From the NCBI RefSeq assembly GCF_021168555.1, contig NZ_JAJOZS010000003.1, positions 62,001 to 126,000 on the forward strand: DNA of 64,000 bases. The letters are read 5' to 3'. Position numbers and translations under genes: made by a program. The notes under the pieces are model-generated. The model saw only the letters and a program-made list of their open reading frames with translations. It was not told the DNA's origin and did no database searches. How positions within the stretch are numbered: position 1 is the first letter of the stretch; each line of letters opens with the position of its first letter. This stretch comes from Stenotrophomonas sp. MMGLT7. Its GTDB lineage: Bacteria > Pseudomonadota > Gammaproteobacteria > Xanthomonadales > Xanthomonadaceae. Positions 3,658-64,000 of this stretch are shown here, piece after piece.

Positions 3658-3841
3658 TCGCCGCGATCGGCGCATCGATGGTGGGGACGACGGCGCCGCG
3701 GGGCGCCGTCGTCCCTTGCGCGGTTCGCGCCGGACCGGAACAGGAGGACGGCCGTGGCCAAGGCCGGCGAAGCGCGCGATCGTCCCGGCTGCGCTTCGCC
3801 CTACCCCGGCCAGGTCGCGGCCGGCCGATGGCGGACGCGAC

Positions 3842-4363: not shown

Positions 4364-4515
4364 GACTAGACTCTTGCTGTTCCTGGCTGCGACCCGGAGC
4401 AGTTTGCTCCCCCGCGACAATCTGTCCATTGATGCAGCTCAAACCTCATGACGAATATCCCACCCGCAGCCCCGCATCGACATCGGGCATCCGGCCCACC
4501 GGTTAGCATCGGCGC

Positions 4516-4977: not shown

Positions 4978-5225
4978 AATCCGGCGCTACGTTTCCTGCA
5001 AGGCTCATCTCATGGCTCGGCAGGGCGACTCCCGCGCCGCTGCTCGCAGCAGCCCTCGGGGCGCTCGCGTCGACGTCGCGACAAGGCCGGGAACCCGTGG
5101 CTCCGGGACAAGGCAGCGACCGCATCGGAATGACCGGCGCCCGGCCATGCCGCGCTTGCCCGGGCCCCGCGGTCGTCGCCCAGGTCGCGGCCGCGGGGCG
5201 ATGACGGCCGTTTCCCCGTTCCCGC

Positions 5226-11245: not shown

Positions 11246-11435
11246 CGCCGGCATGCAGGCCGCAGGTGCGGCGCGAGGTCGCATGGTCGCGGTTCCCCGC
11301 ACGCCTTCGCCCATCCATGTCCGGCGACATCGCTCCCGCGCCGCGATTTCTGCGGCCGCGGTCACGACAATGCCGCAATCGGTCGCCGAAGATGTCCTTC
11401 GCTGCACATCCACCGACCGATAAGGAGAGTCTGTC

Positions 11436-12890
11436 ATGTCGATTCGCAAGCATCTGCGCCCGTTGGCGCTCGGCCTCGCCCTGGCCCTCACCTCGTCCAC
11501 CGCCTTCGGCTACGCGATCAGCGACGGCCAGGTCGTCGACGACCAGGGCAACGCCGTGCAACTGCGCGGGGTGAACTGGTTCGGCTTCGAGACCGGCAAC
11601 CATGTCGTGCACGGCCTGTGGGCGCGCAACTGGAAGGACATGATCACGCAGATGCAGCAGCTCGGCTTCAATGCCGTACGCCTGCCGTTCTGCCCGGCCA
11701 GCCTGAGCGACGGCACCGTGCCCGACAGCATCGACTACTACCGCAACCCCGACCTGCAGGGCTTGAGCGCGCTGCAGATCCTGGACAAGGTGGTCGGCGA
11801 ACTGAGCGACCGCGGCATGTACGTGCTGCTCGACCACCACACCCCCGACTGCGCGTCGATATCCGAGCTCTGGTACACCGATGCCTACAGCGAGAGCCAG
11901 TGGATCGCCGACCTGCGCTTCGTCGCCCGCCGTTACGCGGGCGTGCCGGGCGTGGTCGGGCTGGACCTGAAGAACGAGCCGCACGGCGCCGCCACCTGGG
12001 GCACCGGCAATCCCGCCACCGACTGGAACACGGCCGCCGAGCGCGCCGCCGCCGCGGTGCTGCAGGAAGCGCCGGACTGGCTGATCGCGGTGGAAGGCAT
12101 CGCCGAGAACCCGGTCTGCTCCAGCAGCGGCGGGCACTTCTGGGGCAGCAACCTGGAGCCGCTGGCCTGCACGCCGCTGGACATCCCCGCCGACCGCCTG
12201 CTGCTGGCGCCGCACACCTACGGCCCGGACGTCTACGTGCAGTCCTACTTCAACGACCCCGGCTTCCCGGCCAACATGCCGGCGATCTGGGAGCGCCACT
12301 TCGGCCAGTTCGTGCAGGCCGGCCACGCGGTGCTGCTGGGCGAGTTCGGCGGCAAGTACGGCGAGGGCGATCCGCGCGACGTGCAATGGCAGGAATCGCT
12401 GGTGGACTACCTGATCGGCAAGGGCATCCGCGGCGGCTTCTACTGGTCCTGGAATCCCAACAGCGGCGACACCGGCGGCATCCTGATGGACGACTGGAAC
12501 CAGGTGCGCGAGGACAAGGTGTACCTGCTGAAGACGCTGTGGGGCGACGAGGACGGCAGCGCCCCGGAACCCGAACCCGAACCCGAACCCGAGCCGGAAC
12601 CGGAGCCGGAGCCGGAACCCGAGCAGCCCGCACCCGGCGGCGACTTCGCCACCCAGGTGGTCACCGACAGCGACTGGGGCGCCGGCTACTGCAACCGCGT
12701 CCGGGTCACCAACGCCGGCAGCGCCGCCGCGGCATGGTCGGTCACGCTGTCGATCAGCGGCACGGTCAGCAACCTGTGGAACGCGACCTGGTCGCAGAGC
12801 GGCAGCACGCTCAGCGCTTCGGGCGTGGACTGGAACCGCACGCTGGCGCCGGGTGCGACCGCCGAGTTCGGCTTCTGCGCGGCGCGTTGA
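11436..12890 (+). CDS. Secreted GH5 endoglucanase with Pro-Glu linker and CBM2
   Basis: The 484-residue enzyme has a signal peptide (MSIRKHLRPLALGLALALTSSTAFG), a GH5 catalytic domain of about 345 residues, a linker made of roughly eleven Pro-Glu pairs near residues 372-395, and a C-terminal CBM2-like cellulose-binding module with Cys near both ends. The acid/base is Glu181 in the motif NEP and the nucleophile is Glu303 in GEFGG, as in endo-beta-1,4-glucanases such as the Xanthomonas EngXCA enzyme. It is expected to leave the cell by the type II pathway and cut cellulose internally. A purine-rich site (AAGGAGAG) lies just before the ATG. Confidence 0.95.
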   Translation: MSIRKHLRPLALGLALALTSSTAFGYAISDGQVVDDQGNAVQLRGVNWFGFETGNHVVHGLWARNWKDMITQMQQLGFNAVRLPFCPASLSDGTVPDSIDYYRNPDLQGLSALQILDKVVGELSDRGMYVLLDHHTPDCASISELWYTDAYSESQWIADLRFVARRYAGVPGVVGLDLKNEPHGAATWGTGNPATDWNTAAERAAAAVLQEAPDWLIAVEGIAENPVCSSSGGHFWGSNLEPLACTPLDIPADRLLLAPHTYGPDVYVQSYFNDPGFPANMPAIWERHFGQFVQAGHAVLLGEFGGKYGEGDPRDVQWQESLVDYLIGKGIRGGFYWSWNPNSGDTGGILMDDWNQVREDKVYLLKTLWGDEDGSAPEPEPEPEPEPEPEPEPEPEQPAPGGDFATQVVTDSDWGAGYCNRVRVTNAGSAAAAWSVTLSISGTVSNLWNATWSQSGSTLSASGVDWNRTLAPGATAEFGFCAAR

Positions 12891-43421: not shown

Positions 43422-43439
43422 TGAATGAACGGTCATTCA
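43422..43439. promoter_or_regulatory. Palindromic TetR operator TGAATGA-N4-TCATTCA
   Basis: A perfect 7-4-7 inverted repeat lies 52 bases upstream of the TetR start and 57 bases before the receptor start. Size and symmetry fit a TetR-dimer site, so both the regulator and the receptor operon could be controlled. A related TCATTG follows at about 43444. Confidence 0.7.
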
Positions 43440-43496
43440 TCTGTCATTGTGCACGCACAGACTGCGCCGGCCCCTCACTCCCCGCGAACGAGACCG

Positions 43497-45770
43497 ATGC
43501 GCCACGCCCTGCTGCACCGCCAACTGCTGGCCCTTGCCGTCGCCACCGCCCTGCCGGCCCTCGCCATGGCCGACGACGCCGATACCGCCGACACCGCCGC
43601 CCGCGACGTGGTCGCGCTCGACCAGGTCGTCGTCACCGCGCAGAAACGCGCGACGAACCTGCAGGAGACGCCGATCTCGGTCTCCGTCGTGGATGCCGAG
43701 GCGCTGAAGGATCGCAGCGCGATCTCGATCGGCAGCCTGTCCGACGGTTCGATCCCGTCGCTGCGGGTGACGCCGTTCGCCACCCGCAGCTCCGCGCTGA
43801 ACATCGGCATACGCGGTATCGGGGCCTCCGGCGACGCCAACCAGCCCGCGCGCGACGCCGGCGTGGGCGTATACGTCGATGGCGTGTTCATGGGCCGCGC
43901 GCAGGGCCTGGGCAGCATGCTCTACGACGTGGAGCGCATCGAGGTGCTGAAGGGGCCGCAGGGCACGCTGTTCGGCCGCAACACCGAGGGCGGCGCGATC
44001 AGCATCGTCACCCGGCAGCCCACCGGCGAGTTCGGCGGCAGCGTCAGTGCCGGCGTGTCCAACTACAGCGGCTACAACAGCGGCCTGCACCTGGACCTGC
44101 CCAAGGTGGGCGACGTCAGCTTCAAGATCGATGCGGTGCAGGCCAGGCGCGGCGGCACCACCGACAACCCGATGCGCGGCGAACGCGACTTCAACAGCTA
44201 CGACAAGCGCGGCGCACGGCTGAGCGCGCTGTGGCAGCCCAGCGACGACTTCTCCGCGCTGTACGCGTTCGACCGCTCCTACGACGCCACCACCCCGTAC
44301 CACACGCAGGTGCTGGTGGCAGGCCCGTACCTGAGCCCGCTGCAGCAGGCCGGCGCCAGCGAGGACCGGCGCGGCGCGTCCATCCTGGGCGGCCCGCAGG
44401 AAGACAACATCGGCCGCACCAGCGGCCACCTGCTCAACCTCGGCTGGACGCTCAGCGACAACCTGGAGCTGAAGTCCATCAGTTCCTACCGCGAGCTCAC
44501 CCAGGGCCAGTTCGACATGGGCCTGGTCGATGCGATTTCCGCCTATGGCGGCCCGGGCACCGCCTTCGGCCGCTACAGCCTGGCGCAGGTGTACCAGCAC
44601 CAGTACAGCCAGGAATTCCAGCTGATCGGCAACACCTCGCAGGTGCAGTTCCTGGCCGGCGCCTTCTACTACCACGAGACCGCGGGCGACAACGCGCAGA
44701 CGCCGAACATGCTGCTGTGGGGCCAGGACGGCAACAGCTATACGCTGAACCCGGCGACCAATCCGCTGGACCTGGCCAACGTGCGCATCGATCGCGCCAG
44801 CAAGGCGTGGACCGACAGCCTGGGCATCTTCGGGCAGGCCACCTGGACGCCGGCCTCGCTCGATCGCCTGCACCTGACCGTCGGCGGCCGCTACACCCGC
44901 GACGACAAGAAGGGCAGCCTCTACATGGTCAACGGCGTGGCCACCGATCTCGCCTTCGACGATGCCTGGGGACGCTTCGACCCGATGGTGAACATCGCCT
45001 ACGACCTGGGCGACAGCGCGATGGTGTATGCCAAGTACAGCACCGGCTTCAAGGCCGGCGGCGCCAACTCGCGCTCCACCACCTACACCTCCTTCGCGCC
45101 GGAGGAAGTGACCGCGTTCGAGCTCGGCTTCAAGTCGCAGTTCTGGGACAACCGTGCGCGCCTGAACCTGGCCCTGTTCGACTCGAAGATCGAGCACAAG
45201 CAGATGGACTTCTCGCTGCCGTTCGATCCGGACAGCGGCGAAACCCGCACCACGATGGTCACCACCAACGCGCCCGGCAACGGCACCTCGCGCGGCGCGG
45301 AGCTGGAGTTCAGCGTGATGCCGCTGGACAACCTGACCGTCGGCCTGAACTACGCCTACACCAGGATCGATGCGCAGACCGCCGTCGATCCGTTCGGCGC
45401 CGGCGTGGAAGTCACCGTGCAGCCGCTGCTGGCCCCGAAGAATGCCGGCAGCGTGTCGCTGGACTACCTGGTGCCGTTCGCCGACTTCTCCGCGCTCAAG
45501 TTCCATCTCGACGGCAACTGGTCCGACGGCTTCTACACCAGCGAGTACGACCAGATGCTCACCGACAGTTCGTTCGTGGTGAACGCCCGCGTGGCGCTGA
45601 TCGACGTGCCGCTGAACGACACCGGTTCGACCATCGCCTTCTCGCTGTGGGCGCGCAACCTGCTGGACGAGGAACACCTGTTCTACAAGCTCAACAGCGC
45701 CGCCCTCGGCCAGGCCGGCATCTTCAACGACCCGCGTACCTACGGCCTGGACGTGACCGTCAACTTCTGA
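43497..45770 (+). CDS. TonB-dependent receptor, carbohydrate/other substrate
   Basis: The 757-residue protein has a signal peptide (LAVATALPALAMA), a TonB box (DQVVVTAQK), a plug with the segments TPISVSVVD and IGIRGIG, the DVERIEVLKGPQGTLFGRNTEGGAI motif of FecA/FhuE-type plugs, and a barrel ending in the canonical strand YGLDVTVNF. The receptor is similar to the OAR/iron-complex type, but no loop points to a substrate. It begins a two-gene operon with the exported phosphatase (16-base gap) that a TetR protein probably controls. Confidence 0.9.
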   Translation: MRHALLHRQLLALAVATALPALAMADDADTADTAARDVVALDQVVVTAQKRATNLQETPISVSVVDAEALKDRSAISIGSLSDGSIPSLRVTPFATRSSALNIGIRGIGASGDANQPARDAGVGVYVDGVFMGRAQGLGSMLYDVERIEVLKGPQGTLFGRNTEGGAISIVTRQPTGEFGGSVSAGVSNYSGYNSGLHLDLPKVGDVSFKIDAVQARRGGTTDNPMRGERDFNSYDKRGARLSALWQPSDDFSALYAFDRSYDATTPYHTQVLVAGPYLSPLQQAGASEDRRGASILGGPQEDNIGRTSGHLLNLGWTLSDNLELKSISSYRELTQGQFDMGLVDAISAYGGPGTAFGRYSLAQVYQHQYSQEFQLIGNTSQVQFLAGAFYYHETAGDNAQTPNMLLWGQDGNSYTLNPATNPLDLANVRIDRASKAWTDSLGIFGQATWTPASLDRLHLTVGGRYTRDDKKGSLYMVNGVATDLAFDDAWGRFDPMVNIAYDLGDSAMVYAKYSTGFKAGGANSRSTTYTSFAPEEVTAFELGFKSQFWDNRARLNLALFDSKIEHKQMDFSLPFDPDSGETRTTMVTTNAPGNGTSRGAELEFSVMPLDNLTVGLNYAYTRIDAQTAVDPFGAGVEVTVQPLLAPKNAGSVSLDYLVPFADFSALKFHLDGNWSDGFYTSEYDQMLTDSSFVVNARVALIDVPLNDTGSTIAFSLWARNLLDEEHLFYKLNSAALGQAGIFNDPRTYGLDVTVNF

Positions 45771-45786
45771 CCCCCTGGAGGCTCCG

Positions 45787-46692
45787 ATGAAGAACCGAAG
45801 CACCGCAATCGCACTCGCCTTGTTCCTGGGCCTGCCGATACTGGCCGGCAGCGGCATTGCCCGCGCAGATCTCCCCGCTAACGATGCCACGACCGCAGCG
45901 GCCCGCAGCGGCAACGTGCGGCCGGTGGCCGCCGACGCGCAGCGCCTGGTTCCGCTGCAGGGCGCATGGAACACGCGCAGCTTCGCCGGGCTGCAGGGCA
46001 GCCATGGGCCGATCCCGGCCAGCGCGTTCGTCCGCACCTCGGACCTGGGACGCCTGACCGACGCCGACCGCGACGCGCTGGCAGCCGCCGGGGTGACGCT
46101 GGATATCGACCTGCGTACCGCCGACGAGCAGGCGCAGTCGCCGGACCGGCTGGCCGACGACGATCGCTTCGACTACCAGCGCATCTCGCTCATGGGTACC
46201 GAGAAGATGGACCTGCAGAAGATGATGACGTCCTTCCCGGATTCGCTGGGCGCGGCCTATGTGCAATGGCTCGGCCACAGCCAGCCGCAATTCAAGCAGG
46301 TGTTCCAGCGCATCGCCGCCCAGCGCGACGGCACCGTGCTGTTCCACTGCACCGCGGGCAAGGACCGCACCGGCATCGTCGCCGGGCTGCTGCTGGACCT
46401 GGCGGGCGTGTCCCGCGCGGACATCGTGCACAACTACGCGATCTCCGCGCACTACCTGGAGGACCAGCCCAAGGACAGCGCAATGAACGCGCAGATCATG
46501 GAGCTGGTCAGGCAGAACCCGCAGATCGGGAAGAAGATGGCCGGCATGGCCGGCACCGCGCCGGAGAACATGGAGATGTTCCTGGACGCGCTGCACCGGC
46601 AGTACGGCGGCGCGGAGGGCTACCTCAAGTCCATCGGCATCGACGAGGCCGAAATCCAGCAGCTCAAGGCGCGGCTGGGACAGGCCGGCTGA
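45787..46692 (+). CDS. Exported tyrosine phosphatase (Y_phosphatase3 type)
   Basis: The protein of 301 residues has a signal peptide (MKNRSTAIALALFLGLPILA) and the PF13350-type phosphatase core: RLVPLQGAWNTRSFAG, an Asp-Leu-Arg-Thr (DIDLRT), and the P-loop HCTAGKDRTG near residues 194-203 that binds the phosphate and makes the thiol-phosphate intermediate with its Cys. These enzymes act on phosphotyrosine or on phosphoinositides. It lies 16 bases after the TonB receptor, in one operon, so a periplasmic phosphatase linked to an uptake system is plausible. Confidence 0.9.
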   Translation: MKNRSTAIALALFLGLPILAGSGIARADLPANDATTAAARSGNVRPVAADAQRLVPLQGAWNTRSFAGLQGSHGPIPASAFVRTSDLGRLTDADRDALAAAGVTLDIDLRTADEQAQSPDRLADDDRFDYQRISLMGTEKMDLQKMMTSFPDSLGAAYVQWLGHSQPQFKQVFQRIAAQRDGTVLFHCTAGKDRTGIVAGLLLDLAGVSRADIVHNYAISAHYLEDQPKDSAMNAQIMELVRQNPQIGKKMAGMAGTAPENMEMFLDALHRQYGGAEGYLKSIGIDEAEIQQLKARLGQAG

Positions 46693-46776: not shown

Positions 46777-48858
46777 TCAGCGGGCGGCCGCCGCAATGCT
46801 CGACTTCATCTGCCGCCAGCGCATGTACTGCGCCTTCTTCGCGGGCGCGGCATCCTCGTGGCCCTGCAGCCAGAACCGGAACCAGTCGAGGTTGCGCTCG
46901 TACACCGCCAGCTTGTGCCTGGGCTGGAACTTCTGGTGCGGCTCGTTGGGGAACACGTACAGATCCGCACGCTGCGAGCGCAGCAGCGGAATCTCGTAGT
47001 CCAGCGCGTACAGGTACTCCTGCTCGGAATGCTGGAAGAGGATCGGCGCCCGGATCCTGTCCAGCTTGAATGCCGGCGAGAGCGCCTTCCAGCGCTCCGG
47101 GGTCTCGTCCGGCGCCCCGAGTCCCCACATGTCCCGCAGGCCCTGCACGAAGGCGTCGCCCTTCATGCTGCCGTACAGGTAGTAGGACGGCGACACGACC
47201 GGATTGGCGACCGATGCGGCGGCCAGCAGGCTGGATTCGGTGGCGGTCCACAGCGTCACCGCGCCGCCGAAGCTCAGCCCGCCCATGCCCACGCGGGCCC
47301 GGTCGATCTCGCCCTCCGAGGACAGCAGGTCGACCACGCTCTGCACCGCCGCCAGTCCCTGTCCATGCCGCTCGACCGCATCCAGGGTGTATCCGGGCAA
47401 CTGGTTGATGCATAGCGCGGCGATGCCGGCCTGCGCCAGCGAGGCCAGCGGCCATTCGTCGCCCACCCCGCCGCGCAGGAAGCCCGGGCAGCTGTAGTAG
47501 GTGACGAACAGGGGGGCCGCCGTGCCTGCCTGCCGCCGCGCCGCGTAGAACTGGCCGGTGAACCGCCGCCCCCGGGCGTCGGTCCAGCGCAGCAGCCGCG
47601 CCGGCGCCGCATGCGCCATGTCCAGGGCCAGCGCCGCGTTGGGATCGAACAGCACATGGCGCGCTCCGCCGTCCAGGTCGATCCGCTCCAGCCGCGGCGG
47701 CCGGTCGGCCTCCGCCGTCACGCACACCAGCGCCTGCTCGGAGACGCCGCACCCGGCCGAGGCATCGCGCCCGCCGTTGACCAGCCCCCTGCCCTGCACG
47801 ACCGTGCGCACCTCGCCGGTCTCGACGTTCCAGCGATGGATCGACTGCGCCAGCCCCAGCGCGGGATCGGTGACTGTGAACAGCACCTCGGCGTGGCCGG
47901 GGCGCCACTGGATCGCGGTGATGGGCCGGCCGGTGCACAGTGCCGAGGTGCAGTGCAGCGGCCGCCGCGCACCCGCGCCCGGCAGCACCGACAGCAGCAC
48001 ATCCGGCCGGTACAGTTGCCCGCTGCCGTCGCCGATGCGCGTCAGCACGGCGACCCTGGCGCCGTTCGGTTCGCGCACGGACTTCCAGGGATCGCCCTCG
48101 ACGCCGGCTGCGGGAGCGGCCGGCGACGCCCCGGGAGCGGCCTCGCCCGCGGCCAGCGCCCGCTGCGTCCCCGTCGCCAGGTCCAGCGCCGTCCAGCGGT
48201 CCGGCACGTCGGCCAGCAGCGCGGCGCGATCGAACCACACCGCGCCGAAGCGCTGCGTGGCCAGGCGCCCTTCGGTACTGCCGGAGCGGAACAGGCCCTG
48301 GCCGATCGGCACCGTCGCATCGATGCGGATGCCCTGGTCGTACTCGGCCTGCTCGGCGGCGAGGACCTGCTCGCGGGTGGCACCGACGCTGTACCTGAGC
48401 TCCCGCCCGTCGCGGTCCAGGGCGAAGTCGCGCACGTCCGCGGCGTCGCGCGTCACCGCGGCGGCGCCCGACCCGTCCGCCGCCGCGCGCCACACGGCTA
48501 TCTCGCCGTCGACCAGCGCGCGGTAGTAGATCCAGCGACCGTCGGGCGACCACAGCGCGGTCGCGGGCAAGGCGCCGCCGGCCGAGTCGCGCAGCGGCAC
48601 GCCGCCCTCGGCGACCCGCCTGGGCAGGGGCTCGCCCAGCCCCTGCACGTACCAGACGCTGTCGTAGGTGTTGCGCTCCAGCGACGCCTGCTCGACGCGG
48701 AACGCCACGCTGCGGCCGTCCGGCGAGACGGTCGGAGTGCCGAGATCGACCACTTCCAGCAGCCGTCGCGGCGTGACGTCCTGTGCCTGGCAGACGCTCG
48801 TCCAGCTCGCCGCCAGCGCGCCTGCCGCCAGCAGGCCCCGCACGATGCACTCAGACAT
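46777..48858 (-). CDS. AtxE2-like lasso peptide isopeptidase (S9 family)
   Basis: The 693-residue enzyme has an N-terminal signal region, a beta-propeller (residues about 30-400) and a C-terminal S9 alpha/beta hydrolase domain. The nucleophile is Ser529 in GMGGLSFGG; the acid is probably Glu612 in HSEQEY and the base His641 in NEPHQKF. A Glu in place of the usual Asp, together with this spacing, matches what I remember of AtxE2 (Ser527, Glu610, His638). Such enzymes open the isopeptide bond of a lasso ring. It lies 63 bases after the stop of a TonB receptor gene and ends the unit of sigma factor, FecR, STN protein and receptor. The peptide recognised is unknown. A homologue lies at 63085-64000. 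Confidence 0.85.
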   Translation of the reverse strand: MSECIVRGLLAAGALAASWTSVCQAQDVTPRRLLEVVDLGTPTVSPDGRSVAFRVEQASLERNTYDSVWYVQGLGEPLPRRVAEGGVPLRDSAGGALPATALWSPDGRWIYYRALVDGEIAVWRAAADGSGAAAVTRDAADVRDFALDRDGRELRYSVGATREQVLAAEQAEYDQGIRIDATVPIGQGLFRSGSTEGRLATQRFGAVWFDRAALLADVPDRWTALDLATGTQRALAAGEAAPGASPAAPAAGVEGDPWKSVREPNGARVAVLTRIGDGSGQLYRPDVLLSVLPGAGARRPLHCTSALCTGRPITAIQWRPGHAEVLFTVTDPALGLAQSIHRWNVETGEVRTVVQGRGLVNGGRDASAGCGVSEQALVCVTAEADRPPRLERIDLDGGARHVLFDPNAALALDMAHAAPARLLRWTDARGRRFTGQFYAARRQAGTAAPLFVTYYSCPGFLRGGVGDEWPLASLAQAGIAALCINQLPGYTLDAVERHGQGLAAVQSVVDLLSSEGEIDRARVGMGGLSFGGAVTLWTATESSLLAAASVANPVVSPSYYLYGSMKGDAFVQGLRDMWGLGAPDETPERWKALSPAFKLDRIRAPILFQHSEQEYLYALDYEIPLLRSQRADLYVFPNEPHQKFQPRHKLAVYERNLDWFRFWLQGHEDAAPAKKAQYMRWRQMKSSIAAAAR

Positions 48859-48921
48859 GGGACAGGCACACCTCTCTGCGACGGTCAGGGAACACGGACG
48901 ACGCCGTGCGCGCGGCGGGCA

Positions 48922-51534
48922 TCACCAGTGCTTGGACACGGAAAGGCTGACGAAGCGGCCGATCGCCGAATAGTTGGTCGAGTCGTAGGGCGCCACGTAC
49001 AGCGGCGAGGTGACCGCGTACGACGGCGGGTCGCGATCCAGCGCGTTGTCGATGGACAGGCCGAACTCCAGCCCGGACCAGGCATCGCCGCGCGTACCGG
49101 TGGCATAGCGCAGCGCCGCGTCGAAGGTGGTGAACGAGGCCGACTCGACGCCGTCGACCCGGTTGCTCACCCCGCCGCGGTAGTTGCCGAACAGCGAGCC
49201 GGTGAACCCGCCCTGCCTCCACACGGCGCCGGCGCGGCCGCTCACCCTGGGCGGGTTGAACAGCGTGCCCGCCAGGGCATGGTCCGGCTGGCCCGGGAGG
49301 GTCCGCTGCGTGCTGTCCAGCCAGTTCGCCGCGCCGCGCAGGGTCAGCGAGCCGCCCGCCACCTCGATCCGGTACGACCCGGACAGGTCCACGCCCTGGA
49401 CGTCCTGCCGCGCCACGTTGGCGTACTGCGTGTAGATGATCGCCGCCACCTTGGCCGGGTCGTAGGGCGCGCCGGCGAAGTTGTGGAACGTGCCCGCCGC
49501 GGCGATGACGTCCGCCTGCGCCTGCGTCGTCGGCGCGAGATCGACGAAGGGCGCGTAGATCGCGTTGTTCAGCGCCTGGCTGGAATTGGCGATCGGCTGG
49601 ATCACCCGGTCGCGGTAGTCGATGTGGAACCAGCTCAGCTCGGCCTCCAGGCCGCGCACGGCCTCGGGGTGGTAGGCCAGCGACAGCGAGCGGGTGTCCG
49701 CCCGCTCCGGCTCCAGGTTGCCGTTGCCGCCGTCGAGCACCAGCACGGTCGCATCGGCCGGATAGCCGCTGCCGCCGAAGCTGGCCGGGCCGAACAGCCA
49801 CGCATTGGCCGCGTAGTTGCGCTCGAACAGCGTGGGCGCCTTGAACGACTTGCCCCAGGAGGCCTTCAGGGTGACGTCGGCGTTCGGGCCATAGACCACG
49901 CCGAACTTGGGCGTGGTCACGCCGCCGAAGCTGCTGTAGTCCTCGCCGCGCATCGCGGCGGTGAGCTCCAGGCGCTGCACGCCACGGACCTGCTGCGCGG
50001 GACCGACCAGCGGCAGGTTGAACTCCGCATACGCGAACCGGGCGCTCTCGCTGCCGTCGATCGTCTCGGCGCCGGTGACGTGGTCGACGTTGCGGAACTC
50101 GTTCTTGCGGTAGCCCACGCCGGCCGCCAGCCGCGCATCGCCCGCAGGCAGCGCCAGCAGCGGCCCCTCGGCACCCAGCTCGTAGCTACGGCTGTCGTTG
50201 CAGTAGCACACGTCGGTGACGGCCGCCGCGCCGGTGGCCGTCACCGTCTCCAGCCGGTACTGGTCGTGCTCGCTCCGGCCGGACGTCGCGCCGAGCGACA
50301 GCGTCCAGCCGTGCGGCAGCCAGGCCTCCAGGCTGGGCGAGACCAGCGTGGTCGTGGTCTGCGGCGTGACCCGGCTGTTGCGGCCGCCGATGTTGTACAG
50401 GTGCAGCTGGTCGCGCTCGCTGCGCAGGGCGTCCAGGCGCAGCTCGGCAACCTCGCCCAGCGACTGGTGCGCGCTGATCAGGCCGCTGCGCAGGTCGCTG
50501 CCCGGATACAGCGTCGAGGGATCGACAAGTTGCTCGGCGTAGCGGCGCTGGCGGCTGTAGATGGGATCGACCGAGACGTCCTGGTAGGTGGCGATCAGGC
50601 CGCCGCTGCGCCAGGTGGTGCCGGCGGTGACGGCGTACTCGCGGCTGGCCAGCCCGCCCTGGGTGGCTCGCCCGAAGCGGGTGCCGACGGTCACGCCGTC
50701 GTACTCGCGCTTGAGGATCACGTTGCCGACGCCGCCCACCGCATCGGAGCCGTAGATCGCCGAGGCGCCGTCGGCGACGATCTCGATGCGCTCCACCGCC
50801 TCCACCGGGATCGCACTGATGTCCACCGACTGGGTGAAGCCACCGTAGGCCATGCGGCGCCCGTTGAGCAGGGTCAGGCTGGCATCGGCTCCCAACCCCC
50901 GCAGGTTCAGCCCCGACCCGCCGGTGATGTTCTGGTTGGCGTTGCCGGCACCGGCCAGGTTGCCGCTGAGCACGCCCGGATTCTGTCCGCCGGAGAAGTT
51001 CTGCGGAATGCTGCGCACGACTTCGCCCAGATCGGCGAATCCCTCCTCGCGGATCCGCTCGGCGCCGAGCGCGACCACCGGCGATGGCGTCGAGCCGCCG
51101 CGGATGCGGGTGCCGGTCACGGTGATGGTATCGAGCGTGCTGCTGTCGCCGGCGTTCGCCGCCGCGCCGGGACCGGCCTCGCCCGCCGCCGCGCCATCGC
51201 CGACCGAGATCGTGCTGCCGTTGACCTGGCGAACCGCCAGCCCGCTGCCGGCCAGCATCGCCTGCAAGCCGTCGAGCGTGCCGTAGCTGCCCTGCAACGG
51301 ATGCGTGACGATGCCGGCCACCCGGTCCTGCGAGAACACCAGGGTGATGTCGGCCTGCTCGGCGAAGGCGTTCAGGGCCGCGGCGGCGGGCTGGGCCGGA
51401 ACGTCGAAGCGCCTTGCGGCGCCGGCCTCCTGCGCCTGCGCGCCGGGCATCGCGGCAGCGACACCGAGGGCGACGGCCAGGGCATTGCGGAGGATGTCGT
51501 GCCGGACGTTCTTCATCACGGGATGGCCTTGCAT
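48922..51534 (-). CDS. TonB-dependent receptor with STN domain, lasso-locus type
   Basis: The 870-residue protein has a signal peptide, a secretin/TonB short N-terminal (STN) domain of about residues 42-103 (FDVPAQPAAAALNAFAEQ, ADITLVFSQDRVAG), a TonB-box-like segment (TLDTITVTGTRI), a plug (VVRSIPQNFSGG, LNLRGLGADASLTLLNGRRM, ERIEIVADGASAIYGSDAVGG) and a barrel ending in SLSVSKHW. An STN domain marks receptors that pass a signal to FecR. Together with FecI, FecR and an isopeptidase, this is the usual lasso peptide import set. The ATG at 51534 is used; one at 51516 leaves a typical signal peptide and is equally possible. Confidence 0.88.
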   Translation of the reverse strand: MQGHPVMKNVRHDILRNALAVALGVAAAMPGAQAQEAGAARRFDVPAQPAAAALNAFAEQADITLVFSQDRVAGIVTHPLQGSYGTLDGLQAMLAGSGLAVRQVNGSTISVGDGAAAGEAGPGAAANAGDSSTLDTITVTGTRIRGGSTPSPVVALGAERIREEGFADLGEVVRSIPQNFSGGQNPGVLSGNLAGAGNANQNITGGSGLNLRGLGADASLTLLNGRRMAYGGFTQSVDISAIPVEAVERIEIVADGASAIYGSDAVGGVGNVILKREYDGVTVGTRFGRATQGGLASREYAVTAGTTWRSGGLIATYQDVSVDPIYSRQRRYAEQLVDPSTLYPGSDLRSGLISAHQSLGEVAELRLDALRSERDQLHLYNIGGRNSRVTPQTTTTLVSPSLEAWLPHGWTLSLGATSGRSEHDQYRLETVTATGAAAVTDVCYCNDSRSYELGAEGPLLALPAGDARLAAGVGYRKNEFRNVDHVTGAETIDGSESARFAYAEFNLPLVGPAQQVRGVQRLELTAAMRGEDYSSFGGVTTPKFGVVYGPNADVTLKASWGKSFKAPTLFERNYAANAWLFGPASFGGSGYPADATVLVLDGGNGNLEPERADTRSLSLAYHPEAVRGLEAELSWFHIDYRDRVIQPIANSSQALNNAIYAPFVDLAPTTQAQADVIAAAGTFHNFAGAPYDPAKVAAIIYTQYANVARQDVQGVDLSGSYRIEVAGGSLTLRGAANWLDSTQRTLPGQPDHALAGTLFNPPRVSGRAGAVWRQGGFTGSLFGNYRGGVSNRVDGVESASFTTFDAALRYATGTRGDAWSGLEFGLSIDNALDRDPPSYAVTSPLYVAPYDSTNYSAIGRFVSLSVSKHW

Positions 51535-51657
51535 GGTGGCGTTGTCTCCGCGGAGCTGGATTCGGGTTCCCGGCATCGCACCGGTTCAGTCATGGAGACG
51601 GGCCATGCGTGCGTTTCCGCCACTCCCACCCGCAGCTTGCTCCGGGCCAGACTGCGG

Positions 51658-51987
51658 CTACGGCATGCAGCTCGCGCGCGGACAGATCAGGTAGGTCCCG
51701 TCGCGCGCCCGCCGGTAGCCGAGCCGGGTTCCAGCGAGCAGCAGCGTCAACCCGCGATCCACCGTGTAGCGTCCCCTCAGCGCGTGCGTGCGGTCGTCGG
51801 CGACCAGGTCGTAGGAGAAGATCAGCGTGATGTCCGCCTGCCGGGCGAACGCGTTCAATGCCGGCCCCGCCGCCTGCGCGGGAATGTCGAACCGCACGTC
51901 GGCCGCGGCGGTGGGCGCGCACGCCGCCAGCAACAGGGGCAGCGCCAGCCGCGAGAATACGCGCGAGAGTGCAACGGCGGTTTCCAT
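51658..51987 (-). CDS. Stand-alone STN-domain protein
   Basis: The 109-residue product has an export signal with a lipobox-like LLLAAC, then a single STN domain (FDIPAQAAGPALNAFARQ, ADITLIFSYDLVADDRTHAL) that is closely similar to the STN domain at the start of the receptor downstream. It is not fused to a barrel and lies between FecR (131-base gap) and the receptor (123-base gap). It may be a decoy or a relay in the signal from receptor to FecR. No similar free-standing gene in such loci is known to me. Confidence 0.85.
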   Translation of the reverse strand: METAVALSRVFSRLALPLLLAACAPTAAADVRFDIPAQAAGPALNAFARQADITLIFSYDLVADDRTHALRGRYTVDRGLTLLLAGTRLGYRRARDGTYLICPRASCMP

Positions 51988-52118
51988 CCGGCCAGCTCAT
52001 CCAGGGAGGCGGCGCCAAGGCGCCGGTCACTGGTAGACGGGAGCCGGGGCGTTTTCCGCCATTGCGCCGCCGCGCCGGTGCCGGCCCGTGCGTGCCCGCC
52101 CGCGCCACGACAGGCGGG

Positions 52119-53189
52119 TCACTGGCGTGTCGATGACGTGGAGGCCCGCGCCTGCAGGTAGACCAGGTGATCGGACGTGCGATGCACGGTGATCGGGAAC
52201 GCGTTGGTCAGCGCCTCCAGGAAGCCGTCCACGTCGCCGGTGCGGAAGCGCCCGCCCACGCGCAGGTCCTGGATGCTGGCGTCGGCCACGACCAGCCGCG
52301 TATCCGTGTAGCGGTTCAGTTCGGCGATGGCCCGCACCAGCGGCTCGCCCTCGAAGACGATGGCGCCCTCGCGCCAAGCCAGCGCATTGGAGACGCTCGC
52401 CGGGGCGATCGTGGCCACCGGCGAAGCGGCGGCCGCCTCGAAGCGCTGCCCGGCGCCCAGCTCGCTCGGCGCAACGGCGCCGGACCCGGGCCCGGCGGCG
52501 GTCTTGGCCGGCGAGCCCGCCTGCGATGTGACCTCCACCCTGCCCTCGGTGACGATGACTTCCACGTCGCGGCTGTCGCGCAGGCGCACGTTGAACTCGG
52601 TGCCGACCGCGCGCACCACGGTATCGCCGGCCTGCACGAAGAACGGGCGTTCGCCGTCGTGTGCCACCTTGAACAAGGCTTCGCCCTTCTCCAGCTGGAT
52701 GACGCGCCTGCCACGGCTGAAATGCGTCTCCAGGATGGTGTTGGTATTGAGCTGGACCACCGAGCCATCGGCCAGCGCGACGCTGCGCTGCTGCCCCACC
52801 GCCGTGGCCAGCGTCTGCGACTCGCTGCCGTGCTGGTACCAGGACAGGCTGCCGGCCACCACCGCCACCGAGGCGGCCATCGCCCACGGCACCAGCTTGC
52901 GCAGCCTGCTGCGCATCGGCTTCGGCGCGGCCCTGGCGTACAGGCGACGTTCCTCGGCCACGAAGGTGGCGACCTTTTCCTCGCGCTTGGCCTCGGCCAG
53001 TTCGTCCAGCGACTGCCACACGCCGCCCAGTTCCTCGAACGCGCGGCGATGGCGCGGATCGCGCCGCAGCCATTGCTCGAATTCGACCCGCACCTCGGGG
53101 GCCACGTCCTCGTCGTCCAGCCGCCACACCCAGGCCGCGGCTTCCTCTTCCAGCTCGGCCAGGCTGCGGAACTTCAGCACGTCGCTCAT
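52119..53189 (-). CDS. FecR-type anti-sigma/sigma-regulatory protein
   Basis: The 356-residue protein has an N-terminal cytoplasmic DUF4880 part (EEEAAAWVWRLDDEDVAPEV, then WLRRDPRHRRAFEEL), one membrane helix (about residues 99-118), a FecR domain (SVALADGSVVQLNTNTILET) and a C-terminal DUF4974-like part (VRAIAELNRYTDTRLVVAD). It binds the sigma factor encoded just before it and the STN domain of the receptor in the periplasm. Its start overlaps the stop of the sigma gene by four bases (ATGA). Confidence 0.93.
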   Translation of the reverse strand: MSDVLKFRSLAELEEEAAAWVWRLDDEDVAPEVRVEFEQWLRRDPRHRRAFEELGGVWQSLDELAEAKREEKVATFVAEERRLYARAAPKPMRSRLRKLVPWAMAASVAVVAGSLSWYQHGSESQTLATAVGQQRSVALADGSVVQLNTNTILETHFSRGRRVIQLEKGEALFKVAHDGERPFFVQAGDTVVRAVGTEFNVRLRDSRDVEVIVTEGRVEVTSQAGSPAKTAAGPGSGAVAPSELGAGQRFEAAAASPVATIAPASVSNALAWREGAIVFEGEPLVRAIAELNRYTDTRLVVADASIQDLRVGGRFRTGDVDGFLEALTNAFPITVHRTSDHLVYLQARASTSSTRQ

Positions 53190-53770
53190 CGGCCGTCTCC
53201 TTCGTCCCTGCGCCGGCGCGCCGGGCGGCCCTCGCCCATCGATGCGACATCGCCCGACAGGCCATGGTCGCGCAGGTGGTCCCGGCACCGCACCAGGCCC
53301 TTGGCGACATGCTTCTCGATGGTGCTCTGCGAGATGCCCAGCACCGCACCGATCTCCGCCTGCGACAACTTGTAGACCTTCCTCAACACGAACACGCGCC
53401 GGCAGATCGGCGGCAAGCTGTCCACCGCCGAACAGAACGCCTCGAACCGACGGCGCGCATCCAGCTGCTCTTCGAGCTGGGGGCCATCGGAAGAGACGCC
53501 CAACGCATCGAAATCCGCCACCGCATCGGTGGCGCGGCTGACCCGGCGGCGGCCCAGCTCGACCGCCAGGTTGTGGGCGATGGTGATCAGCAGCGCCTTG
53601 GGCGACTCGACCGCGGCGTAGTCCTGGATGCCGTAGATGCGCAGGTACGTGTCCTGGATGACGTCCTCGATGTCCTCGGCGGAGTTCAGGTACTTGCGCA
53701 GGTACTGCTGCAGCATCTGCCGATGGCAGAACACCTGGTTGAGGAACCATTCGTGGCGGTCGGACGACAT
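53186..53770 (-). CDS. FecI-type ECF sigma factor
   Basis: The protein of 194 residues has region 2 (LQQYLRKYLNSAEDIEDVIQ then DTYLRIYGIQDYAAVESPKALLI) and region 4 (LPPICRRVFVLRKVYKLSQAEIGAVLGISQSTIEKHVAKGL), the pattern of iron-starvation ECF sigma factors. It should direct transcription of the receptor unit when the substrate is bound. The start at 53770 (MSSDRHEWFL) fits the family N-terminus better than an ATG upstream. It is the first gene of the unit. Confidence 0.93.
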   Translation of the reverse strand: MSSDRHEWFLNQVFCHRQMLQQYLRKYLNSAEDIEDVIQDTYLRIYGIQDYAAVESPKALLITIAHNLAVELGRRRVSRATDAVADFDALGVSSDGPQLEEQLDARRRFEAFCSAVDSLPPICRRVFVLRKVYKLSQAEIGAVLGISQSTIEKHVAKGLVRCRDHLRDHGLSGDVASMGEGRPARRRRDEGDGR

Positions 53771-54030
53771 GATCGCGGGCGGCGGCTGACAGGCGGCGGT
53801 CGCCCCCATGGAACCGCGACGCTGCCTCCATGTAAAGCGGAAACCCGCCTGCAACCGCTTGTTTTCACGAATGAAGCGCCGGAGTGGCGGAAGTTCGCCG
53901 GTCGCCCGTCTTCATGGGGTTGAGCCTTGCCCGCACCATCGGCGGCAGGCGCAGGGAGCACGCCTGGACCACCGGGAACCGCGACCGCCGCGAGGCCCTG
54001 CGCCTCGCGGCCGCAAGCGTGCCGCCGCGG

Positions 54031-59617: not shown

Positions 59618-60247
59618 ATGAGTGCCACCCACTCCAAGAATGAATTGCTGTACAGGCAGGTCAGGCGCGCCCTGCAATCGGGTCGCTACGTCCCAGGGCA
59701 ACGGATAGACCCAGCCACGCTCGCCACGGAATTCGACACCAGCACCACGCCCGTCCGCTTCGCCCTGTATCGCCTGGTCGGCGAAGGCCTGGTCGCCGAT
59801 CATGCCCGCAACGGGTTGCACGTCCCACTGCTCACCGAAGTCGCCATGCGCGACCTCTACGACTGGATGCAGCGCCTGCTGCTGATGGCATGCGACATCG
59901 GCTTCGCATCGACGGCCCGGAAAACCACACAACCGGAGTTGGCCCCCACCGACGACGATGTGGTGAAGCTGACCTGGAAGCTGTTCGATGCGATCGCCCG
60001 CGCTACCTCCCATCGATCCCTGCACCGTGCCGTGAAGCAGGCCAACGGCCGGCTGGCGCCGATACGGCGGGCCAAGCAGGAGCTGATCGAGAACGCCTGC
60101 GAAGAGCTTTCGGCACTGGACCGGCATTGGCAGGCCCGCGACATCCCGGCCCTCAGATCCGCATTACGCGACTATCACGAACGCCGCAAGCAACTCGTCC
60201 CGCGCATCGTGGCCGCGCTGAGCGACGGCAGCGACTACCTCCACTAG
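59618..60247 (+). CDS. GntR-family (FadR-like) regulator of the lasso cluster
   Basis: The 209-residue protein has a GntR winged helix (LYRQVRRALQSGRYVPGQRI then DPATLATEFDTSTTPVRFALYRLVGEGLVA) and a C-terminal helical domain of the FCD type (DLYDWMQRLLLMACDIGFAS). It lies 224 bases before the precursor gene on the same strand, and an interrupted palindrome sits between the predicted promoter and the precursor start. It probably controls the cluster in response to a small ligand. Which ligand is unknown. Confidence 0.88.
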   Translation: MSATHSKNELLYRQVRRALQSGRYVPGQRIDPATLATEFDTSTTPVRFALYRLVGEGLVADHARNGLHVPLLTEVAMRDLYDWMQRLLLMACDIGFASTARKTTQPELAPTDDDVVKLTWKLFDAIARATSHRSLHRAVKQANGRLAPIRRAKQELIENACEELSALDRHWQARDIPALRSALRDYHERRKQLVPRIVAALSDGSDYLH

Positions 60248-60434: not shown

Positions 60435-60451
60435 TCATGGGACGTCCATGA
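60435..60451. promoter_or_regulatory. Interrupted palindrome TCATGG-GACGT-CCATGA (candidate GntR operator)
   Basis: Six-base arms TCATGG and CCATGA flank a five-base spacer, right after the predicted -10 box, where bound repressor would block transcription. Its 6-5-6 arrangement fits a dimeric winged-helix regulator such as the GntR protein encoded upstream. A stem-loop in the leader RNA is an alternative. Confidence 0.5.
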
Positions 60452-60471
60452 CGCAACCGAAGGAGACAGCG

Positions 60472-60612
60472 ATGGATACGAACCAGAACACCCGCACCAA
60501 CACGGCGGAAGACCTGATCGTGCTTGGCGTCGCCAGCGTCGAGACGAAAGGACAGATGGGCATCACCGAGAACTTCGGCGCCGTTCCCCTCGACGGCATT
60601 TCCGATGCATGA
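60472..60612 (+). CDS. Lasso peptide precursor (predicted 7-residue Gly1-Glu7 ring)
   Basis: This 46-residue gene starts after an AAGGAGA site (60458-60464). The leader (26 residues) ends LGVASVETK with a Thr at position -2, the conserved residue of lasso leaders. The predicted core is GQMGITENFGAVPLDGISDA: Gly27 supplies the amino group, and Glu33, residue seven of the core, is the only acidic residue before Asp41, so the ring should have seven residues. Phe35 (core 9) is a candidate plug. Seven-residue rings are known from xanthomonins. The C-terminal GISDA may be trimmed. Its stop overlaps the start of the B gene. Confidence 0.9.
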   Translation: MDTNQNTRTNTAEDLIVLGVASVETKGQMGITENFGAVPLDGISDA

Positions 60613-61337
60613 CCAACCAGGTGCGCCGAAAGGCGCACCTCTTGGCAGGTATGAAGAAGATGATGCCTCTCAAACTGCATGACGACCTGTCGTACTGCAA
60701 AGTCGATGGAAACCTGATCTTCCTCGACATCCAGAACGATCGCTACTTTCGGTTATCGACCGATCTGGAGTCGTGTTTCGTCAATTATCTGGAAGGCGAT
60801 GACGGCTCGCACCGTGCAATCCAGAGACTGATCGAACATCGGATCCTGATCGGCGCGGCGACCGACGCAGGCCGAATCCCTGTATCGCTGCCAGGAAGTC
60901 CAACACGCAGCGCAATGGAAGAACAGGTATCCACCCATCGCACGAGCATCAGCGAAGTCCTGGACACTTTCGCGATTGTCTGCTCGACACAGCTGTTGCT
61001 GAAAACCCGCAGGCTGAAGCATGTCCTCGCCCGACTCGCCTCCTATCGTGAGAAACGAGTGCCTCAAGCCTTGATCTCTCATCAAGACAAGTCACGCACG
61101 CTGGATGCTACCGCTGCCTTCCGCAGCACACGCCCGTACGTCCCGATCGACACGTGCTGCCTGCTCGACTCAATCGCGCTGGTCAAGTTCCTGGCCAAGC
61201 GCGAGCTTGCAGCGAAGCTCGTCTTTGGCGTTACTGCAACCCCATTCTCGGCGCACTGTTGGGCGCAATACGAAACCACGGTGCTCAACGACACCGTGGG
61301 ACATGTACTCGCTCATACGCCAATCCGGGTGATCTGA
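60609..61337 (+). CDS. Lasso peptide B protein (RRE + transglutaminase-like protease)
   Basis: The 242-residue protein has an N-terminal RiPP recognition element (PqqD-like; KLHDDLSYCKVDGNLIFLDI, then QNDRYFRLSTDLES) that binds the leader, and a C-terminal transglutaminase-like protease that removes it. The catalytic residues are probably Cys184 in DTCCLLDS, His216 in FSAHCWAQ and Asp228 in LNDTV, equivalent to the McjB triad. The start at 60609 overlaps the precursor stop as ATGA; an internal ATG at 60651 would remove an unconserved lead. Its stop overlaps the cyclase start by one base. Confidence 0.92.
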   Translation: MTNQVRRKAHLLAGMKKMMPLKLHDDLSYCKVDGNLIFLDIQNDRYFRLSTDLESCFVNYLEGDDGSHRAIQRLIEHRILIGAATDAGRIPVSLPGSPTRSAMEEQVSTHRTSISEVLDTFAIVCSTQLLLKTRRLKHVLARLASYREKRVPQALISHQDKSRTLDATAAFRSTRPYVPIDTCCLLDSIALVKFLAKRELAAKLVFGVTATPFSAHCWAQYETTVLNDTVGHVLAHTPIRVI

Positions 61338-63088
61338 TGTGCGGCGACTACATCGCAATTCTGGGCCACGGCATGGCAGAGATCGTGGCACCCGCTTCTC
61401 CGCTGGCTGACATACTCGGCACCATGAGCACATATGTCCGTTATGCATCGGACACGATGGTATTGTTCTGCGGGGAGGACGTTTCGACGCTATCTCTACC
61501 TGACGGCAGCATTCTCCTCGGCAGCCTCTTCACCCGCGACGGAATTTCCCTGGATGAGGAAGCAGGACTGCCAGCGCTCACCAGCCAGGCTGCAACCCGG
61601 CAACACATCATCGAGAAATGCTGGGGTTCCTATCTTCTGATCCAGCCCGACATGGAGGGTTCCGGCGAGCTCACGATAACCCGTTCTCCAGCCGCTGCCG
61701 GCGCTCTCCCATGCATCTACTCGATCAGGAATGGATCTGGATTCCTGACATCCGACATCTCCCTGGCAGTCCAAGCCAACCTCTATCGGAAGCGGATCGA
61801 CTGGGATTTCATGATCCGCCGCCTGAAGCATCCACATATCAAAATGCAGCGCACCGCATTGGCCGAAGTCGCCGAACTTCTGCCCGGATGCTCGTTGAGC
61901 CTGCATGGCACCACTCCCCTCTCTATCGACCAAGCGTGGTCTCCTTGGCACTTCGTCATTCCCGAACGTCGTCAATGCGACCCGCGCGAGGCAGCAGCTC
62001 GGATTCGTCATGCCGTCGCAAGTTCCATTCACGCATGGGCGGCCACGGACAGGGCGATCTTGCTGGAGCTTTCCGGCGGGCTGGACTCGTCCATCGTTGC
62101 CGCCGGCCTGAGCGACTGCCATGCACGCGTCACCTGCTGCAACCTGGCAACCCCTGTTCCGGGCGTGGACGAGCGGCATTACGCGGGACTGATGGCCAGC
62201 CAACTCGGCACCGGACTTCACACCGAGCAATTGGATCTCGACCGGGCACGCCTCGATTTCGACATATCTGCCTCTTCCGTCGCCCCTGGCATGGGACCGC
62301 TGCAGTACGCCATCGACCGGACGATGGAGGATCTTGCCGAACGACATGGGGCCACTGCTTACTACTCGGGAGGCGGGGGAGATTCCGTGTTCTGCTATCT
62401 ACGAACTGCTGCACCCGCTGCCGATGCGTTCAGAGCACGAGGGCTGGGAGACGCGATCACCGCGGCCAAGGACTTGTCCAGCCTGCACCAATGCACACTC
62501 TGGAAGGCTGGCCGCCTGACGCTATCCAAGCTGAGGCGGCCACCGACGTCGCCTTATCGCGAGGATGCCACGTTCATCGCACCAGGGACGGCCAGCACCA
62601 GCCCGGAGCCACATCCATGGTTCGCTGCTCCTGACGACGCGCTGCCGGGAGACAGGGAGCGAATCTTCGACCTGGCGGGGAACCAGCTCTTCCAAGACCA
62701 AGCCGCACGGGGCTCCAAGCGTCCCCTGCGTTTTCCGTTGCTATCCCAACCTGTAATGGAAGCCTGCCTCCAGGCACCCAGTTGGATGTGGATTTCCGGG
62801 GGCAGGAATCGTGCGCTTGCAAGAGATGCGTTCTCCGACACCCTGCCTTCCGAAATCGTGAACCGCCAAAGCAAGGCCACGTACATGAGCTACCTGGGCG
62901 CTGTGTACGAAAGAAGCAAGCATGAAATCTCGGACTTTCTGCTCTCCGGCCGACTCCAGTCCCAAGGCCTCCTGGACAGGCGCGCCATTGCCGCCTTCCT
63001 GGCGACGCCGCTGGCGCCACGAGATCAAACCTTCCTCAGGATGTTCGATCTCTGCATGGTCGAGAACTGGGTACGCCATCAGCCCTAG
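61337..63088 (+). CDS. Lasso peptide cyclase C (asparagine-synthetase-like)
   Basis: The 583-residue enzyme activates the ring acid as an AMP ester and forms the isopeptide bond. It has the ATP-pyrophosphatase loop LSGGLDSS (Ser246-Ser252) and the later SGGGGDS (from residue 344), plus an N-terminal glutaminase-like domain that here still begins Met-Cys-Gly, the start in which Cys is the nucleophile of true asparagine synthetases; most lasso cyclases lack it. The start at 61337 (MCGDYIAILG) overlaps the B stop by one base (TGATG). The gene runs tail to tail with the isopeptidase, and their stop codons overlap. Confidence 0.93.
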   Translation: MCGDYIAILGHGMAEIVAPASPLADILGTMSTYVRYASDTMVLFCGEDVSTLSLPDGSILLGSLFTRDGISLDEEAGLPALTSQAATRQHIIEKCWGSYLLIQPDMEGSGELTITRSPAAAGALPCIYSIRNGSGFLTSDISLAVQANLYRKRIDWDFMIRRLKHPHIKMQRTALAEVAELLPGCSLSLHGTTPLSIDQAWSPWHFVIPERRQCDPREAAARIRHAVASSIHAWAATDRAILLELSGGLDSSIVAAGLSDCHARVTCCNLATPVPGVDERHYAGLMASQLGTGLHTEQLDLDRARLDFDISASSVAPGMGPLQYAIDRTMEDLAERHGATAYYSGGGGDSVFCYLRTAAPAADAFRARGLGDAITAAKDLSSLHQCTLWKAGRLTLSKLRRPPTSPYREDATFIAPGTASTSPEPHPWFAAPDDALPGDRERIFDLAGNQLFQDQAARGSKRPLRFPLLSQPVMEACLQAPSWMWISGGRNRALARDAFSDTLPSEIVNRQSKATYMSYLGAVYERSKHEISDFLLSGRLQSQGLLDRRAIAAFLATPLAPRDQTFLRMFDLCMVENWVRHQP

Positions 63089-64000
63089 CGGACTTTGCGC
63101 GTACCGTGCATGGCTTCTCGCATCACGCGCCAAATGGCGTATTGGGGCGCCTTTCCTGGGTTCGGATCCTCCAGGCCCAGCAACCAGAACCGGAACCAGT
63201 CCAGGTTGCGCTCATACACGGCAAGCTTGTGTCGCGGCTGGAACTTGTTGTGAGGTTCATGGGGAAAGACATAGACGTCCGCCTTGCTGCTCCGCATGAG
63301 CGGAATGGCGTAGTCGAGTCCATGCATGTATTCCTGCTCCGGGAGCTGCAGCAGGATGGGGGCACCGATCATCCCCAGGTTCAAGGTCGGTGAAATCCGT
63401 TGCCACTGCGATGGCGTTTCGTCCAGCGTACCCAGTTGCCAGTTCCCCCGCATCAGTGACAAGAAGGGGTCGCCGATATTGCTGCCCAGCAGGTGATACA
63501 GCGGCGAGGTAGTAGGTGATGCCATTGATGCGGCCGCGAGTACGTCGGAATGGATCAGCGTCCACATCGTCACTTCACTGCCGAAGCTGATGCCACCCAT
63601 GCCTATCCTGGCCTTGTCGATACGCCCTTCCGAGGCGAGCCGCTCGATCACGCTTTCAACCGCTGAAAGGCCGAGATCGTAGCGCTCGCCGGCATCGGCA
63701 GGGAACGAAGGAGCGTTGATGCATAGAGTAGAAATCCCCTGCTCTGCCAGAGTGGCCAGCGGCCACTCATCACCTGATCCTCCCCGCGTAAAGCCCATGC
63801 ACCGGTAGTAGGTCACGAACAGGGCCGGCGGTGTGTCGCCGGTCGGGCGTGCCGGGTAGAGCTGCCCCGAGAAATACCTCCCCTTCGCATCCGTCCAACG
63901 AAGCAGTTGCGTCGGGATCCCGGAAAGATCGTGGGTCAGGCTTGCATTGGGATCGAACAAGACTTGGCGCGCCCCCGTCTGCAGATCGACCCTTTCCAGC
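63085..64000 (-). CDS. Lasso peptide isopeptidase, second copy (cut by the right edge)
   Basis: The visible 304 residues are the C-terminal S9 hydrolase domain: GMGGISFGSEV holds the nucleophile Ser, LPEQEYMHGLDYAIPL the probable Glu, and HEPHNKFQPRHKLAVYERNL the His. The chain is a clear homologue of the isopeptidase at 46777-48858, sharing the run QPRHKLAVYERNLDWFRFWL and the final residues. In the same frame, LERVDLQTGARQVLFDPNAS extends to the edge, so the gene continues beyond the window. It most likely opens the lasso made by the adjacent A-B-C genes. Confidence 0.85.
   Translation of the reverse strand, partial: LERVDLQTGARQVLFDPNASLTHDLSGIPTQLLRWTDAKGRYFSGQLYPARPTGDTPPALFVTYYRCMGFTRGGSGDEWPLATLAEQGISTLCINAPSFPADAGERYDLGLSAVESVIERLASEGRIDKARIGMGGISFGSEVTMWTLIHSDVLAAASMASPTTSPLYHLLGSNIGDPFLSLMRGNWQLGTLDETPSQWQRISPTLNLGMIGAPILLQLPEQEYMHGLDYAIPLMRSSKADVYVFPHEPHNKFQPRHKLAVYERNLDWFRFWLLGLEDPNPGKAPQYAIWRVMREAMHGTRKVR

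Follow-up and report, generated by a model that had tools for sequence, protein, structure and literature searches.

The stretch of DNA analysed here, called the window in the following, comprises 64,000 nucleotides of the genome of Stenotrophomonas sp. MMGLT7 (contig NZ_JAJOZS010000003.1, positions 62,001 to 126,000) and harbors on its minus strand a gene set in which a sigma/anti-sigma pair and a TonB-dependent receptor (TBDR) adjoin a lasso peptide isopeptidase. Gene calls and family profiles bear out both the existence and the order of this five-gene set (46777-53854), which had been proposed in an earlier note made from the letters alone. The genes form a single co-oriented unit, I1-R1-S1-T1-E1, encoding a FecI-like extracytoplasmic function (ECF) sigma factor (I1, 53186-53854), a FecR-type anti-sigma factor (R1, 52119-53189), a free STN protein (S1, 51658-51987), an STN-bearing TBDR (T1, 48922-51576), and the isopeptidase (E1, 46777-48858). 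The start codon of I1 is uncertain, and the choice of start codon alone explains why the set had been given an end at 53770 instead of 53854. Translation of T1 probably starts near 51516.

The isopeptidase E1 (693 aa) scores 667 bits in a profile search with NF033523 ('Atxe2 family lasso peptide isopeptidase'), for which the curated cut-off is 400, and it aligns lengthwise with the AtxE2 of known structure in the PDB (5e-52). The Ser-Glu-His triad, as defined for this family (PMC9266682), is intact in the motifs GGLSFGG, QHSEQEYL, and NEPHQKF, and the gene is under purifying selection with a dN/dS of about 0.3, similar to its relatives from producing clusters. T1 consists of a TBDR barrel and plug with a weak N-terminal match to STN. 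S1 matches STN with 9e-10 and has a signal peptide with a Cys close to its end and a C-terminal Cys-x4-Cys motif; this protein is kept in five loci. R1 contains the domains FecR, DUF4880, and FecR_C, and I1 contains the regions r2 and r4 of sigma70.

An ECF-type motif, GGAAA-N11-CCCGTCT, is found in exact form on the minus strand upstream of S1 (52035-52057) and of T1 (51596-51618), and we infer that it is the putative sigma-dependent promoter of S1 and of T1-E1. These are the only two exact sites in the host genome. A search of five genomes, about 26 Mb in total, gave 12 exact sites, all of them within I-R-S-T loci, compared to 2 matches for a reversed control pattern. A divergent copy with one mismatch is located upstream of I1 on the plus strand, pointing away from the set (53889-53911). 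Four of the five genomes contain such a divergent site, at 2710-2732 of locus L069 (Luteimonas sp. XNQY3), 16534-16556 of L094, and 9281-9303 of L108 (Peristeroidobacter soli) besides the window, with no conserved open reading frame downstream.

The region from 46 to 54 kb is free of A, B, and C genes, as stated earlier, and the set is therefore referred to as the orphan set. The nearest A belongs to the lasso cluster of the host, which lies 6.6 kb away on the plus strand (60448-63088, core GQMGITENFGAVPLDG) and, in agreement with the earlier note, brings its own isopeptidase. This cluster consists of A (60448-60612, NF033522), B (60609-61337, NF033537), and C (61337-63088), is preceded by a GntR-type regulator (59618-60247, plus strand), and converges with the isopeptidase gene E2 (63085-64000, minus strand), which is cut by the window end. 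T2, a receptor without STN, follows E2 just past the window, and no homologs of I, R or S were found after T2. The I1-type motif is absent at A and T2 within one mismatch, and two mismatches bring the matches to chance level (178 sites versus 160 for the control); control of the neighboring cluster by I1 was rejected on these grounds. Over the host genome as a whole, two and only two isopeptidases exceed the cut-off, and there is a single B2 gene and a single precursor A. A short precursor that had been missed, which the earlier note had allowed for, did not turn up: a profile derived from some 60 precursors detected no additional A in the window, and two genome-wide searches, one with NF033522 and one with a xanthomonin query, detected no further precursor in the host assembly, so that a hidden precursor was rejected. 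The A-B-C genes have a GC content of 59.8%, compared to 69.4% for the window and 67-73% for the orphan set; the compositional outlier is the lasso cluster and not the orphan set.

E1 and the T1 barrel have their closest relatives in clusters for another class of lasso peptides. In the isopeptidase tree, E1 groups on a branch that is not long with the enzyme of locus L041 (genus g6), to which it is 79% identical, and with eleven entries from genus g17, all of which are located beside A-B-C (98/93 support), while E2 pairs with the isopeptidase of locus L061. The T1 barrel falls into a clade with the same L041 and g17 clusters (100/100) and T2 again pairs with L061; T1 barrel identity is 84% (77-90%) to L041 and 50-65% to XNQY3. 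E1 and E2 are 56.5% and T1 and T2 59.8% identical and belong to separate clades, which led to the rejection of a recent duplication of the neighboring E2-T2. Plasmid-borne relatives of E1 are only alphaproteobacterial and less than 47% identical. The clusters of the E1 clade have cores following the pattern GGPLAGEE[IM]GG..., namely GGPLAGEEIGGPNVLG and GGPLAGEEMGGFTALG at L041 and GGPLAGEEIGGFNVPG and mostly GGPLAGEEMGGITTLG in g17. We take the g17 cores to be xanthomonins I and II, and g17 hence to be Xanthomonas; published work confirms the seven-residue ring of xanthomonins and the presence of the cluster in Xanthomonas hortorum. The host core resembles the L061 core GMAGITENFGVLPLEG, and its similarity to the xanthomonin-type cores is merely 0.08-0.17. 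Among 40 non-redundant clusters, isopeptidase identity correlates with core similarity when kinship is ignored (Mantel r=0.62, p=1e-4), and for cluster pairs whose isopeptidases are 70-80% identical, core similarity has a median of 0.87 and a minimum of 0.52. From the clade placement, this correlation, and the dissimilar host core, the ligand of T1 and E1 is predicted to be a xanthomonin-like peptide that is foreign to the host, in keeping with reports that isopeptidases act on none but their cognate peptide (PMC9266682).

T1 is, judged by its sequence relationships, a mosaic in which an STN of the I-R-S type is joined to a barrel of the xanthomonin type. Its STN shares 77% identity with that of the receptor in XNQY3 and is placed in a clade (98/98) that holds only S proteins and STNs of I-R-S loci. 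The receptors of L041 and g17, in contrast, lack an STN, and L041 also lacks I-R-S. Close relatives of R1, I1, and S1 are encoded in Luteimonas sp. XNQY3 (genome G393; about 80%, 89%, and 61-66% identity, respectively) and in genome G331; the relatives in G062 and Peristeroidobacter soli are more distant. Behind this shared I-R-S front end, the receptor is of the xanthomonin type in the window and of another lasso type in XNQY3, G331 has a very distant receptor and isopeptidase, P. soli has a lasso-like receptor with S9 peptidases that are not of the AtxE2 type, and G062 has a siderophore-type TBDR and an R gene with one stop codon. An STN is present in all 12 receptors of A-B-C-less I-R sets, including an I-R-T set without isopeptidase in G122, compared to 7 of the 50 A-B-C-linked receptors (kinship ignored in both counts). 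Receptor mosaicism, a possible ligand, and a promoter motif of its own go beyond what the earlier note had described.

Several of these loci have further features. At L119 (contig C11 of G062), the I-R-S module has a single TAG stop in the match to R and is followed by the siderophore-type TBDR with the STN of the module. In L069 of XNQY3, a pair resembling VapBC-type toxin-antitoxin genes, judged by eye, lies between R and S (4542-5700). In L108 of P. soli (G395), the I-R-S set is followed by the lasso-like receptor together with two S9 peptidases that score below the cut-off. At L087 of G122 (537-5043), the I-R-TBDR set without isopeptidase is divergent from a lasso A-B-C cluster, and its STN-bearing receptor is closest (64%) to receptors of clusters with the core GPAGINEFVGTLMG.

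The survey of the family that the earlier note had proposed was carried out with 395 genomes. Scoring was confined to the top three candidates of each genome, which makes the counts lower bounds. An isopeptidase over the cut-off is encoded in at least 47 genomes and at least 58 loci. In 50 of the 58 scored loci it is part of an A-B-C cluster, usually with A-B-C converging with E-T. The remaining eight loci without A-B-C are the window, one each in G059, G360, and G331, and two each in G389 and G393. No A, B or C was found in the wider neighborhoods of the loci in G059, G331, G360, and G389, and for G059, G331, and G360, which are 99-100% complete, a genome-wide search found no B2 gene, with a model that detects 41 of 41 known B proteins. 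Thus, A-B-C-less isopeptidase sets recur in the family, and three of them are found in near-complete genomes without a B gene. In the open-access literature, no report of such sets or of free STN partners was found. A Luteimonas-group genome (contig C4 of G389, about 61-100 kb; L103, L062, L104) has five I-R-TBDR-peptidase sets in tandem, in which four of the peptidases are over the AtxE2 cut-off (about 495-634 bits) and the fifth is far below (124 bits), and P. soli encodes seven isopeptidases over the cut-off together with two B2 genes.

On balance, the orphan set appears to be an autonomous, ligand-inducible module for the uptake and linearisation of a lasso peptide that is not a product of the cell, a reading that we hold to be reasonably probable. 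The set would have originated when a xanthomonin-type barrel and isopeptidase were joined to the recurrent I-R-S-STN signalling front end. A foreign xanthomonin-type peptide would bind to T1, the STN of T1 would signal to R1, and I1 would be freed to transcribe S1 and T1-E1 from the GGAAA-N11-CCCGTCT promoters. T1 would then carry the peptide into the periplasm, where E1 would open the isopeptide bond. S1, as a separate periplasmic STN under the same control, would most likely compete with the STN of T1 for R1 and thereby damp the response. This role is a natural guess because STN domains that are provided as separate proteins inhibit the induction of FecA (PMC9249621) and shield anti-sigma factors from proteolysis (PMC11637429); an excess of separate STN has been reported to block the induction of cell-surface signalling (PMC11637429, PMC9249621). 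Gene content, families, the mosaic structure, the motif, the intact triad, purifying selection, and the absence of a matching precursor from the assembly are established by the analysis. Ligand binding, signalling, induction, import, and cutting are deduced from known cell-surface signalling systems, and the identity of the ligand and the role of S1 are deductions as well.

Known lasso clusters with isopeptidases, such as those for astexin (AtxE2), benenodin, sphingopyxin, and xanthomonin, share with the orphan set the isopeptidase, the TonB receptor, and the sigma/anti-sigma pair, and their enzymes have a Ser-His-Glu/Asp triad as in E1 (PMC9266682). In contrast to these clusters, the orphan unit lacks A, B, C, and GntR, has an additional free STN protein, and its E1 and T1 are of another peptide class than the product of the host. 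FecI-FecR-FecA signalling also comprises an ECF sigma factor, a FecR-type anti-sigma factor, an STN-bearing TBDR, and a sigma-dependent promoter motif, for which GGAAA-N11-CCCGTCT is the candidate in the orphan set, and xenosiderophore systems resemble the orphan set in having a receptor for a compound that the cell need not make. The orphan set differs from them in that its predicted ligand is a lasso peptide, its operon ends in an isopeptidase, and it includes a separate STN protein. The L041 and g17 clusters make the peptide and have STN-less receptors, whereas the orphan set has no precursor.

A number of points weigh against an autonomous module for a foreign peptide. Isopeptidases have been reported to be active on their cognate peptide only, and with such narrow specificity (PMC9266682) an identity of 79% predicts a peptide class and not one peptide. 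Neither the Mantel test nor the STN count is corrected for phylogeny, and the STN tree is built on 70 columns. The siderophore-type TBDR behind I-R-S in G062 indicates that the front end is not lasso-specific. In addition, the sister set in XNQY3 has a complete lasso cluster of the same orientation at a distance of about 8.5 kb, and this proximity may reflect a functional tie to the neighboring cluster.

Such a tie leads to the main rival explanation, according to which the orphan set is a second arm of the host cluster that senses, imports, and cuts the A-B-C product and supplies the sigma/anti-sigma pair to E2-T2. It is suggested by the lack of STN, I or R alongside E2-T2, by the order and orientation in the window being repeated in XNQY3 (T-E / C-B-A, then I-R-S-T-E), by the divergent arrangement of I-R-T and A-B-C in G122, and by the improbability of such proximity by chance in a 4.3 Mb genome. 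However, many clusters of the family are likewise without I-R, the neighboring clusters of the host and XNQY3 are not orthologous by their isopeptidases, and the paired isopeptidases within the window and XNQY3 loci are 57-59% identical. Together with the separate clades of the two receptor-isopeptidase pairs, a host core unlike those of the E1 clade, and the missing motif at A and T2, this makes a second arm unlikely. The genes common to the intervals between orphan set and A in Luteimonas and the window are limited to the GntR gene preceding A, and the rest differ. The earlier note had left import and cutting of foreign peptides and a second route for the neighbor's product side by side; the latter is disfavored by the 57% identity of E1 and E2, the cognate-only activity of these enzymes (PMC9266682), and the lack of the motif, while the former has gained strong, if indirect, support from the placement of E1 and T1 in the xanthomonin clade, the unrelated host core, the sets in B-less genomes, and an intact E1 under purifying selection.

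The nesting of E1 and T1 in a clade otherwise tied to A-B-C would also fit a former xanthomonin-type cluster that is drifting or decaying after loss of A-B-C. Here, none of the five reading frames is interrupted, the triad is intact, the promoter motifs are conserved, and neither the dN/dS value nor the branch of E1 points to decay. Moreover, the front end is not left over from a xanthomonin-type cluster since an STN is missing from the L041 and g17 receptors and I-R-S is missing from L041; a remnant is thus highly improbable. There is little to recommend a general scavenger of linear or other peptides either, in which the lasso link is ancestry only. S9 enzymes generally act on peptides, and non-AtxE2 S9 peptidases or a siderophore-type TBDR occur in related I-R-S modules, but E1 lies well within the isopeptidase family, is 79% identical to lasso-cluster enzymes, and characterized family members require threaded substrates (PMC9266682). 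Scavenging is therefore unlikely for E1 and less so for the wider group of such modules.

The biological role of isopeptidase-clade lasso peptides has been called enigmatic (PMC9266682). If the orphan set is a module for a foreign peptide, receptor, sensor, and isopeptidase are kept without peptide making in producers as well as in B-less genomes, which would mean that the peptide is valuable to non-makers. Such a value favors a signal or a siderophore-like shared good over plain turnover of the cell's own product, and cells may intercept a neighbor's lasso peptide as a cue or use it as food. A more tentative generalization, to which we give slightly less than even credence, is that bacteria eavesdrop on or pirate the lasso peptides of other species by means of a conserved I-R-S-STN front end that has repeatedly been fitted with differing receptor/isopeptidase pairs, as in xenosiderophore receptors, with the free STN as a built-in brake. 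If this is true, such lasso peptides would be interspecies signals or shared goods.

Two minor observations concern other genes. Beside E1, the plus strand of the window encodes a TonB receptor followed by a protein of the tyrosine phosphatase family (Y_phosphatase3; 43425-46692). In L083 of G377 (10967-12837), lasso gene C extends over three different reading frames and is probably broken; E, T, A, and B appear to be intact.

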